Shown here: positions 2,799-10,806 of the stretch, piece by piece | Layout: the number at the start of each line of letters is the position of its first letter | Position numbering within the stretch: position 1 is the stretch's first letter | IMG/VR virus record: IMGVR_UViG_3300022699_000064 | Location: 1 to 28,026 of that record | Origin: a virus | Strand: one strand, 5' to 3' | Length of the DNA stretch: 28,026 nucleotides | The notes under the pieces: model-generated | The model's input: the letters and a program-made list of their open reading frames with translations, nothing else | Told to the model about the DNA's origin: nothing | Database searches by the model: none | Program-made: the position numbers and the translations under genes

Positions 2799-2821
2799 GC
2801 CCCGCGCTGCGGGGCTTTTTT
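2799..2821 (+). terminator. Rho-independent terminator of the rightward late block
   Basis: GCCCCGC (2799-2805), loop GCT, GCGGGGC (2809-2815), then six T. This is a 7-bp GC-only stem with a classical U-tract for rightward transcription. It lies between convergent operons. Read leftward the stem lacks a U-tract, so it probably does not stop the opposing transcript efficiently. The T-run overlaps the TAA stop of the leftward gene by two bases. Confidence 0.9.
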
Positions 2822-2927
2822 ATGCCTTTTTGAACACGGCCCAAACGAACACGCCCACGAAGGCCAAAACCAAGGCCGCGCCCGAGAAGGCAACGGCGGC
2901 GAGGCCGTAACTGAGAATGCTACACAT
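2820..2927 (-). CDS. 35-aa single-span membrane peptide
   Basis: The start at 2927 has a good Shine-Dalgarno (CGGGAG, 7-8 bases upstream) and overlaps the previous gene's stop by eight bases (ATGTGTAG). An N-terminal extension in this frame was rejected because it crosses the upstream gene. MCSILSYGLAAVAFSGAAL begins a hydrophobic helix covering nearly the whole protein, ending WAVFKKA with a basic cytoplasmic-type tail. It is the last gene of the leftward arm. Function unknown; single-span peptides in early phage regions can modulate membranes or superinfection, but nothing specific can be claimed. Confidence 0.6.
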   Translation of the reverse strand: MCSILSYGLAAVAFSGAALVLAFVGVFVWAVFKKA

Positions 2928-3126
2928 TGGATTTCTCCCGTTCTTTCTGCATAAGTCGCAAAAGCGACATGGCTTTGTTCGACCATTCATCCGGGCACCG
3001 TTCGCCGCGCAAATGGCATGCCAGGGCTTTTGCCAGCAGCTGCTCCATTGACAGCAGCAGTTCGCGCTCCTGATGGAGCTCGACAACGGCATCGGCGATG
3101 GCCAGTTCCAGGTGATTATCGCTCAC
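2920..3126 (-). CDS. hypothetical helical protein (68 aa)
   Basis: GTG start at 3126, chosen because it overlaps the end of the upstream gene by 11 bases and gives a compact protein. The longer ORF to 3252 is read-through of the neighbour's region. The product is predicted almost wholly helical (LAIADAVVELHQERELLLSM), charged, with two Cys (C38, C44) around HLRGERC and a basic end (QKEREKSNV). No family was recognised. Its position in the overlapping small-gene nest implies co-translation with its neighbours. Confidence 0.6.
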   Translation of the reverse strand: MSDNHLELAIADAVVELHQERELLLSMEQLLAKALACHLRGERCPDEWSNKAMSLLRLMQKEREKSNV

Positions 3127-3289
3127 GGGTGGGCACCATGTTTTTGATGCGCCCCCAAGCGTCCAGGGCTTTGCGCTTGGTGGTCTTGTGCTCCCGGCGA
3201 GCGGCCTGGCATAGCCGCTGCAGGTAGAGCCAAGCCTCCTCCTCGTCATCATGCCGACGCCACGCTTCGCTTTCTTTATCGGTGCTCAT
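3116..3289 (-). CDS. hypothetical charged protein (57 aa)
   Basis: ATG at 3289 with the leader CGGGAGAAACGCT. It overlaps the TGA of the upstream 104-aa gene (ATGA) and ends at 3116. The product starts MSTDKESEAWRRHDDEEEAW, so the first 18 residues are acidic and the rest basic (RREHKTTKRK), with predicted helix throughout. No recognised family. The polarity change along the chain suggests an adaptor or nucleic-acid-binding role, but this is a guess. Confidence 0.6.
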   Translation of the reverse strand: MSTDKESEAWRRHDDEEEAWLYLQRLCQAARREHKTTKRKALDAWGRIKNMVPTRER

Positions 3290-3600
3290 AGCGTTTCTCC
3301 CGTTAGCCTGCTGGCAATCCCATCAACGTATTCCTTGATGCCTTGGTCGTCTCGATCCGTATACCAGTCCATGCTGGACTTGCCGGCCTTGATGCGCACC
3401 AGCCGCAGCCCGTGGCGCCGACGTTTCATGATCCGATACGTCACCAGCTGGCGGTTTTTCTCGTCCATGTGCGCCTTGACTATCGCTTTCACACGGTTTG
3501 GCGATATGTCGAGCTCATCGGCGATTGATTTCGCCGCCATGTGGCGGCATGAAAACTGCTGGTATTTCTTGACGATTTCCGCCCTAGTCTTTTGCTGCAT
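3286..3600 (-). CDS. putative HTH DNA-binding protein (104 aa)
   Basis: Residues 20-46 (HMAAKSIADELDISPNRVK) look like a helix-turn-helix of the type where a short helix, a D-I-S turn and a recognition helix follow one another. A basic stretch follows (IMKRRRHGLRLVRIKAG). The C-terminal 30 residues are acidic/polar (WYTDRDDQGIKEYVDG). It may be a small regulator of the early region or of host genes. GGGAGA lies 9 bases upstream of the start. It overlaps the 74-aa HTH-like gene upstream by 17 bases and the next gene by four. Confidence 0.62.
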   Translation of the reverse strand: MQQKTRAEIVKKYQQFSCRHMAAKSIADELDISPNRVKAIVKAHMDEKNRQLVTYRIMKRRRHGLRLVRIKAGKSSMDWYTDRDDQGIKEYVDGIASRLTGETL

Positions 3601-3808
3601 TGAGTGCTATCTCCCAGTCGTGAGCGAGCCCCCAAATGAACTCGTCAGTGTTTTCCCCGATCCCGTCCAACACTATCTCCCATCTGGATGGGTCGGACAG
3701 ACGGCCGGATCGGAACCAGTTTTTGGTCGTGCGGTATGGAATGCCAGTGATCTTCGCCATGGCATAGGCAGATCGGTACTGGCCGATCACCTTCGCGTGA
3801 TAGTTCAT
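3584..3808 (-). CDS. small Cro/YdaS-like putative DNA-binding protein (74 aa)
   Basis: MNYHAKVIGQYRSAYAMAKI and YRTTKNWFRSGRL suggest a helix-turn-helix with the recognition helix around residues 23-36. The C-terminal half is acidic (IGENTDEFIW). In size and form it resembles Cro-like repressors of temperate phages, but it is not placed at the divergent control region, so a direct Cro role is uncertain. Its ATGA overlap with the upstream gene and 17-base overlap with the next gene argue for tight translational coupling. Confidence 0.6.
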   Translation of the reverse strand: MNYHAKVIGQYRSAYAMAKITGIPYRTTKNWFRSGRLSDPSRWEIVLDGIGENTDEFIWGLAHDWEIALNAAKD

Positions 3809-3987
3809 TCTTCGTCTGCCTCGTATGCCCGCTGCATGTAATGGTCTTTCACGAAGTCGAGCAGCCCGAGCACTGTCACTACCAAGGTATCGTGCGGCAT
3901 CTCCTCGTCAATCTTCTCGACAATCGCTTGAACCATTCGCTCGACCCTAGGATCGCCGTTGTACAGATTCTGCACTTTGTCACTCAT
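3805..3987 (-). CDS. hypothetical acidic protein (60 aa)
   Basis: ATG at 3987 gives 60 residues beginning MSDKVQNLYNGDPRVERM. The longer open frame to 4125 lies inside the upstream gene and was rejected. The protein is acidic, helical (VQAIVEKIDEEM) with a hydrophobic patch (LVVTVLGLLDFVKDH) too short and too interrupted to call a membrane span with confidence. No family recognised. Confidence 0.55.
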   Translation of the reverse strand: MSDKVQNLYNGDPRVERMVQAIVEKIDEEMPHDTLVVTVLGLLDFVKDHYMQRAYEADEE

Positions 3988-4159
3988 CGCATTTCCCCTT
4001 GTAAGCCGGCCAGCCGGCATCACCGTTCGTTTCCTCGTAGAGCTCGACCATCTCGCAATAGCGATCCTGCTGGCGCTGCTCCTCCTGGGCGTCCATCGAG
4101 CCCACCCATCCATAAAGCCCGACAAACAACGCCGCGATCAAAAAGTACCGAATCTTCAT
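3980..4159 (-). CDS. small membrane-anchored or exported conserved phage protein (59 aa)
   Basis: Too short for most ORF callers but clear: ATG at 4159 preceded by GGGGGA, overlapping the upstream TGA, stop at 3980. Residues 1-4 are basic (MKIR), followed by a hydrophobic segment YFLIAALFVGLYGWVG (5-20): a signal anchor or signal peptide. The mature part has CEMVELYEET at 35-44, then GWPAYKGKC. A C-x-M-V-x-L-x5-G-x2-GWP-x-Y-x-G-x-C pattern is familiar from many proteobacterial phage early regions. The two Cys could form a periplasmic disulfide. Function unknown to me. Confidence 0.7.
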   Translation of the reverse strand: MKIRYFLIAALFVGLYGWVGSMDAQEEQRQQDRYCEMVELYEETNGDAGWPAYKGKCDE

Positions 4160-4437
4160 GACATCATCCCCCGCGCCACAATCGCGTCGTATCGATTCGT
4201 TGCTCCGGTTGCGATCTTCTCAATCAAAGCATCGCGCTTTTCTTGATACAGCCTGTCGTTTTCGCGCTTGGCATCATTGAGCCAGGTCGTTGCCTGCGCA
4301 ATACACGCCATCGCATTACGGACAGCTGATTCTTCACCGTTGTCCTCGGCGAACTGCTCATGCCACTCGTCAAGATGCTCGAATAGCGTGCTGGCCTCCG
4401 CCACAAGGTCGTCATAAGTGTCCTGGTCTATATTCAT
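4156..4437 (-). CDS. hypothetical acidic helical protein (93 aa)
   Basis: First gene after the internal leftward promoter, with AGGGA upstream of the ATG at 4437. Begins MNIDQDTYDDLVAEASTLF. It is acidic in the first half, with a predicted helical bundle or coiled coil around residues 50-80 (WLNDAKRENDRLYQEKRDAL). No domain recognised. Leading the promoter-proximal position of an eight-gene nest suggests early, relatively high expression. Small acidic early proteins are often inhibitors of host DNA-binding enzymes, but there is no specific evidence here. Confidence 0.65.
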   Translation of the reverse strand: MNIDQDTYDDLVAEASTLFEHLDEWHEQFAEDNGEESAVRNAMACIAQATTWLNDAKRENDRLYQEKRDALIEKIATGATNRYDAIVARGMMS

Positions 4438-4469: not shown

Positions 4470-4498
4470 ATTATAAGGCCATCCGTGGCCCTATGCAA
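4470..4498 (-). promoter_or_regulatory. leftward sigma70 promoter with an inverted repeat in its spacer
   Basis: On the minus strand: TTGCAT (-35, 4498-4493), 17-bp spacer, TATAAT (perfect -10, 4475-4470), about 33 bases ahead of the 93-aa gene. The spacer contains the inverted repeat GGCCA-TCCG-TGGCC (4477-4490), which fills it almost exactly, as an operator for a repressor would. It lies between dut and the small-gene nest, so those eight genes can be expressed independently of the recombination genes upstream. Confidence 0.75.
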
Positions 4499-4938: not shown

Positions 4939-4962
4939 AAAAAGCCCGGCGCGAGGCCGGGC
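4939..4962 (-). terminator. leftward Rho-independent terminator between the SSB-like gene and dut
   Basis: Read leftward: GCCCGGC (4962-4956), loop CTCGC, GCCGGGC (4950-4944), then five T (4943-4939). A 7-bp GC-rich stem with a short U-tract, only 14 bases before the dut start and 9 bases after the SSB-like stop. No promoter fits between it and dut, so it probably acts as a partial terminator or an antitermination checkpoint separating recombination genes from dut. Confidence 0.82.
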
Positions 4963-6884: not shown

Positions 6885-6898
6885 TGGACTCGAGTCCA
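6885..6898. promoter_or_regulatory. perfect 14-bp palindrome, candidate operator
   Basis: TGGACTCGAGTCCA is an exact palindrome. It starts in the last base of the leftward -10 box and covers the expected transcription start, where a bound dimer would block initiation. Only one copy was noticed in the window. The cognate repressor is unknown. Candidates inside the window are the small HTH proteins of the left arm; a repressor outside the window is equally possible. Confidence 0.65.
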
Positions 6899-6925
6899 GA
6901 ATAACAGCTTGGGGCTATATGTAAA
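6898..6925 (-). promoter_or_regulatory. main leftward early promoter
   Basis: Minus strand: TTTACA (-35, 6925-6920), 16-bp spacer, TATTCT (-10, 6903-6898). Start of transcription is expected near 6891, giving a leader of about 30 bases before erf. It is sigma70-like with 5/6 and 4/6 matches. It lies in the 107-bp divergent gap between the two arms, overlapped by the palindrome. Confidence 0.65.
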
Positions 6926-10317: not shown

Positions 10318-10806
10318 ATGATGCACCACCTGGAAATCGAAGCGCGAGAGAAAGAGCTGTCGATCAACGGCCGGCCGGTAGGCGTCGAGGAAATGCACGC
10401 CGACTATCAGCGGGAGCGCCGGAAAGCGGCTAGGGCCGAGGCGGCGATGGAGATTCTGCGCAGCCGCAAGCGGCTAGACGACGCGGCCCACGAAAAGATC
10501 GCCCAGGATGCCCGGGCCGAGGCAAAGCGGTTAAACGAGCAAGTCGCGGATGACTACAACCAGCCTACTCATGCTGAGAACACTCGATTGTCGGACTTTC
10601 ACGCAGCGGACACCGTAAACCATCCGGCCCACTACACGCAGGGTGCGATTGAGTGCATCGAGGTACTCGAGCAGCTGGCCAACGATGGTCATGACTTCCG
10701 CATATTGAACGCGATCAAGTATCTTTGGCGTTATCGCGCCAAGGGCGGCAATGAAAGCCTGAGAAAAGCGATCTGGTATATCGAAAGGGTGCTGCAGGAT
10801 GGCTGA
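10318..10806 (+). CDS. DUF3310 protein with a charged helical N-terminal extension
   Basis: 162 residues; GGAG six bases before the ATG at 10318. Residues 99-160 are DUF3310 (SaV-like): VNHPAHYTQGAIECIEVLEQ, NAIKYLWRYRAKGG and KAIWYIERVL. This domain is found in T7 gp1.7 (a nucleotide kinase that confers ddT sensitivity) and other phage early proteins, so a nucleotide-metabolism role is plausible. Residues 1-80 are a charged helix (ADYQRERRKAARAEAAMEIL) not needed in minimal family members. It overlaps the next gene by eight bases. Confidence 0.82.
   Translation: MMHHLEIEAREKELSINGRPVGVEEMHADYQRERRKAARAEAAMEILRSRKRLDDAAHEKIAQDARAEAKRLNEQVADDYNQPTHAENTRLSDFHAADTVNHPAHYTQGAIECIEVLEQLANDGHDFRILNAIKYLWRYRAKGGNESLRKAIWYIERVLQDG

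Follow-up and report, generated by a model that had tools for sequence, protein, structure and literature searches.

Eight overlapping small genes form a candidate autoregulated accessory operon in a siphovirus-like phage

The exo-xis region of phage lambda is a block of tiny genes of variable content that lies in the leftward arm behind the recombination genes and encodes small DNA-binding-like and helical proteins. The nest of eight tiny genes described here is likewise placed, varies likewise in content and also encodes such proteins, but differs from the lambda region in that a promoter of its own appears to lie after a terminator; no sequence homologues of the exo-xis genes were seen in PHROGs. 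In acr-aca operons, an HTH autorepressor binds an inverted repeat that lies inside the core promoter (PMC9410906). The nest resembles these operons in its small genes, its HTH genes and, at the level of sequence only, an inverted repeat (GGCCACGGATGGCC) between the putative −35 and −10 boxes. It is unlike them in that the HTH genes lie mid-operon and no acr or aca homologue was recognised; the nest HTH proteins had no sequence match to a solved Aca, and there was no relevant Pfam or NCBIfam match to an anti-CRISPR gene. A comparable nest is also present between helicase and primase in Pseudomonas phage PPpW-3 (AB775548.1), with the same runs of tiny genes, twelve 4-base overlaps and a homologue of orf2, which is the only gene identified as common to the two nests. 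As a phage region the nest is of an ordinary kind, with unusually clear regulation and mostly uncharacterised cargo.

The window, i.e. the whole stretch of 28,026 bases that was analysed, comes from IMG/VR and carries siphovirus-like late genes on its right. The leftward arm comprises erf, a RecE/YqaJ-type exonuclease gene, a winged HTH gene (HTH_39), ssb and dUTPase and then the nest, a gene order that places the nest behind recombination genes and supports the interpretation given in the initial annotation of this DNA. This arm converges on rightward genes for amidase-like, holin-like and metallophosphoesterase proteins, whose terminator-like hairpin (2799–2815, + strand) lies directly beyond orf8. 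The last of the rightward genes before this terminator is a 31-aa, very basic ORF (2615–2710, + strand). Megablast of the whole window against phages returned no match, and a genome collection searched for a host or prophage with the orf5 alignment and the portal protein yielded no relatives.

All eight ORFs were found on the − strand, overlapping leftward without gaps as annotated earlier. The nest is opened by orf1 (4437–4156; 93 aa, acidic) and continues with orf2 (4159–3980; 59 aa), which has an N-terminal membrane anchor and a Y-C-x-M-V ... GWP ... C core; the acidic orf3 (3987–3805; 60 aa); orf4 (3808–3584; 74 aa), with a predicted Cro/C-type HTH repressor fold; orf5 (3600–3286; 104 aa), in which an N-terminal HTH (TnpE/HTH_23-like) precedes a C-terminal three-strand/helix domain; orf6 (3289–3116; 57 aa); orf7 (3126–2920; 68 aa), which has a GTG start; and orf8 (2927–2820; 35 aa). 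Successive overlaps from orf1 to orf8 measure 4, 8, 4, 17, 4, 11 and 8 bases. The two HTH proteins, the C...GWP...C protein and the single-span peptide of the initial annotation correspond to orf4 and orf5, to orf2, whose core recurs as a family feature, and to orf8, respectively, and its four genes without a recognised family are orf1, orf3, orf6 and orf7, for which searches of PHROGs, Pfam and NCBIfam gave no family.

The nest ORFs are genuine genes, with synonymous changes dominating and gene order kept in relatives, and they are under purifying selection. Comparison with contig L086, which is 98% identical, shows 20 synonymous changes against 5 non-synonymous ones over the eight ORFs combined. 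Relative to a second contig, L006, orf3 carries 34.5 synonymous and 6.5 non-synonymous changes, while orf1, orf2, orf5 and orf6 have ps of ∼0.7–0.8 and pn of ∼0.22–0.27. Nest synteny was observed in both of these contigs and in L004/L005. A reading of most nest ORFs as spurious could draw on their shortness and on seven of them being without a usable family match, but the synonymous excess and the synteny across diverged relatives make it practically untenable, and for orf1 to orf7 it is already refuted. The weakest case for a genuine gene among the eight is orf8, but L005 and L010 also have the MCS start, the hydrophobic core and the 8-base ATGTGTAG overlap with orf7.

Homologues of orf1, orf2, orf4, orf5, orf6, orf7 and orf8 occur in the same order in L004/L005, as do those of orf1, orf2, orf3, orf5, orf6 and orf7 in L006, a contig that ends in orf7. 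Identity of the orf1 homologue is 55% in L006, 43% in L005 and 41% in L004. The orf3 product is 93% identical in L006 and absent from L004/L005; orf4 is present in L004/L005 and was not found in L006. A comparison of gene content in near relatives, which the initial annotation had proposed as a check, revealed clear exchange of cargo. In a single relative (L004 2607–3692), dUTPase is separated from the nest promoter by a C5 cytosine DNA methyltransferase gene (PF00145, E 1.6e-19), possibly for protection against restriction, and a SleB/CwlJ-type cell-wall hydrolase gene (PF07486, E 1.4e-23) lies between orf6 and orf7 in L005 (3614–4012) and L004 (5491–5889). A phrog_6858 gene is found near the orf3/orf4 slot in L006 and L005, the L005 copy being weakly YuA-gp49-like, below cut-off. 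Nest cargo is thus swapped between related phages, and the exchange of methyltransferase and hydrolase through the block, together with its conserved promoter-operator, marks it as an accessory island. In two more distant relatives, L010 and L007 (Erf ∼54% alike), orf7, and in L010 also orf8, comes after dUTPase and is soon followed by DUF4224 and a tyrosine integrase, which is the position of the lambda exo-xis region; this setting was seen in these two relatives only. The window itself is without an integrase, and no relatives of this integrase or of DUF4224 were found when it was searched for them. A 58-aa gene after dUTPase in L010/L007 was ruled out as an orf1 relative by profile comparison.

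The regulatory anatomy of the nest was absent from the initial annotation and is added here. The gap between dUTPase and orf1 contains a promoter-like site, TTGCAT-17-TATAAT (4470..4498, − strand; −35 at 4498–4493, −10 at 4475–4470), with counterpart boxes at the same place in L006 (TTGACA-18-TATAGT) and in L005 and L004 (TTTACA-18-TATACT). Its spacer holds the operator-like inverted repeat GGCCA-CGGA-TGGCC (4490–4477), and the promoter spacers of the window and its relatives contain GGCC-N6-GGCC or a near variant. The window and L005 have in common a 13-mer operator core, GGGCCACGGATGG (0/2000 shuffles), despite the first 100 bases of orf1 being only 63% identical between them. Taken by itself the window promoter is weak, with a −35 box of 3/6 and an equal score in 8% of shuffles, and the case for it is one of conservation in only three independent lineages; the promoter scores of L006 and L005 are reached by 0.2% and 0.5% of shuffles, respectively. 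A collection scan with the operator core resulted in 39 stretches, among which nest genes and promoter boxes occurred only at loci already known (L115, L124 and L125, identical to L004, L005 and L086); the remaining stretches look like chance. An Rfam search returned nothing.

A strong terminator-like leftward hairpin (4944..4962, − strand) is located 3′ of ssb, with counterparts in L005 and L006. Based on this terminator after ssb and the promoter-like site with its repeat before orf1, the nest is probably its own transcription unit. L006 has no dUTPase, and there terminator, promoter and orf1 adjoin one another; in L004 a small ORF lies between promoter and orf1. Given these two arrangements, the nest appears to be a unit with its own promoter, behind which genes are acquired and lost. 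A further promoter-like site precedes erf (6898–6925, − strand), with a leader, TCCAACGGAAGC, similar to that of orf1 in L005, which would fit a relationship between the two promoters.

The initial annotation had regarded the packing of these genes as unusual and as suggestive of strict co-translation. Overlaps were found at 7/7 nest junctions and at 16/34 of the remaining same-strand junctions of the window (Fisher p 0.012, in a test chosen post hoc); the count used a hand-made gene list with some start codons set by the analyst. With so many overlaps elsewhere in the window and a comparable nest in PPpW-3, the unusual nature of the packing was overstated. Translational coupling of the nest genes is likely but not special, because 4-base overlaps are the commonest co-directional overlaps in prokaryotes and experiments have tested termination-reinitiation coupling in gene pairs of this kind (PMC6728339).

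The AlphaFold2 model of orf4 (mean pLDDT 79; 81–96 per block over residues 1–50) has five helices and the helical lambda-repressor-like HTH fold of Cro/C-type repressors. Nearly all of the top fold rows were Cro, XRE or controller repressors, with Z ≤5.6 and Foldseek E >0.1, including Xfaso1 Cro (Z 5.3, rmsd 3.2, 63 aligned, 22% identity); Aca11 was also among the rows. Weak sequence matches were obtained to P2 C (E 0.08) and, by profile, to P22 Cro (E 0.19). On this predicted fold, orf4 is a candidate autoregulator. Furthermore, possession of the operator core goes with orf4 and not with closeness of relationship: L005, at 36–44% amino acid identity in shared nest genes and with orf4 present, has the core, while L006, at 55–93% in most shared nest genes and with orf4 not found, is without the window's core. 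The comparison (n=3) tentatively points to orf4 as the ligand of the core, and the operator offers a direct and cheap way to tell which of the HTH proteins is the regulator of the nest.

For the HTH of orf5, a Pfam match to HTH_23/HTH_Tnp fell below the curated cut-off, and a fold match to TnpE was obtained (Z 7.2, rmsd 1.7, 50 aligned). Its C-terminal domain gave no reliable fold match; a likeness to the N-terminal region of AcrIF24 (Z 5.6, rmsd 3.1–3.3, 53 aligned, 8% identity), tied with unrelated rows, was too weak to use and was rejected, and PDB profile matches of orf5 (designed proteins, S15) were not meaningful. AcrIF24 both represses its own operon and blocks a defence complex. That orf5 follows this pattern, its HTH repressing the operon and its C-terminal domain blocking a host defence complex, and that the nest is an anti-defence island of a new family, seems to us very unlikely, the AcrIF24 likeness being the sole structural hint.

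The orf2 protein matched phrog_6168 over its whole length (residues 2–58, E 3.4e-13) and was the exception among the nest proteins, which otherwise had no significant match in PHROGs. It shares with the family the same membrane anchor and the Y-C-x-M-V ... W-P ... C core, with no notable difference; an alignment of 12 members has six invariant positions, and two cysteines are invariant. Family members were too divergent for their alignment to serve in a viral scan, and PDB profile matches of orf2 were not meaningful. Relatives were present in 42 phage records, several of them beside recombination or replication genes, such as Erf/RecE-type genes in Vibrio and Shewanella phages, a DNA polymerase gene shortly before them in VpKK5 and a helicase gene before them in ctQRb9. 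Phage-collection searches with orf1, orf3, orf4, orf5 and orf7 gave no match, and viral scans with the orf1, orf5 and orf7 alignments gave no new nest. Seven of the eight nest proteins turned up in no more than a handful of phage contigs, are without a usable family and are unexplored.

We propose, with a probability of roughly 0.55, that the nest is a self-contained, autoregulated early accessory operon with exchangeable cargo, placed where the leftward early arm of this siphovirus-like phage ends. Transcription by the host RNA polymerase would begin at the promoter immediately before orf1, after the terminator of the erf-yqaJ-HTH-ssb operon, and would produce one polycistronic mRNA, on which ribosomes would re-initiate at each overlapping stop/start. 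As the Cro-like orf4 product, or alternatively that of orf5, built up, it would occupy the inverted repeat in the spacer and turn the operon off, so that the small proteins would be made in a brief early burst. The early timing is suggested by gene order and promoter-like sequence only. The cargo would most likely modulate the host or the phage developmental programme, like the lambda exo-xis genes, through molecular targets that are as yet putative.

The same operon may also do without autoregulation, a tentative reading in which the promoter is constitutive or is controlled by some other factor of phage or host, or in which transcripts from the erf promoter reach the nest by anti-termination at the ssb terminator, with orf4 and orf5 acting elsewhere, e.g. 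at the main early promoter. The weak −35 box in the window, the promoter-like site before erf (6925–6898), the three cases behind the operator-orf4 link and the failure to find a repressor or integrase that would locate a lysogeny switch would all fit, but the repeat and promoter boxes are kept at the same place in diverged relatives, and a terminator parts the erf operon from the nest in both L006 and the window. We are more doubtful that the nest is mainly an anti-defence island, in which acr-aca-type control would govern several small proteins that block restriction, CRISPR-Cas or other defences. Its narrow distribution and gene exchange, the DNA methyltransferase gene that L004 carries in this region and the combination of an HTH gene with an inverted repeat in the core promoter, as described for acr-aca operons (PMC9410906), are consistent with such a role; however, there was no match to defence-related or other functional families, and the orf2 family is widespread and found beside recombination genes.

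Searches of the nest against PADLOC, Pfam, NCBIfam and PHROGs gave no credible match naming a host-inhibitor function. Homology to structural or replication genes, which the initial annotation had held to count against host takeover, was likewise not found. Anti-defence or host takeover by the cargo is plausible, with no single gene showing either, and to look in the nest for proteins acting on the host cell is reasonable, if unproven. A lysis or envelope accessory cassette, built around the membrane proteins orf2 and orf8 and the SleB-type hydrolase that relatives L004/L005 carry between orf6 and orf7, is improbable: the hydrolase is absent from the window and L006, the amidase and holin-like genes of the window form a separate converging unit, a separate late lysozyme-like ORF is present in L005, and two HTH proteins and small acidic proteins fit such a cassette poorly.

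Lastly, several further features were observed. The SleB hydrolase gene of L004/L005 sits inside the early nest, away from the late lysis genes. A zinc-ribbon-like peptide of the CPACG...CPxCG type comes 3′ of the orf7/orf8 slot; in L005 (4300–4407) it stands alone, and in L007 it makes up the C-terminal part of a longer protein (ORF ending at 10426). A similar layout is also present in Methylophilales phage MEP301 (L145; MW452941.1 1–7040), with YqaJ and ERF genes, two small ORFs and a converging phosphodiesterase, peptidase and holin.
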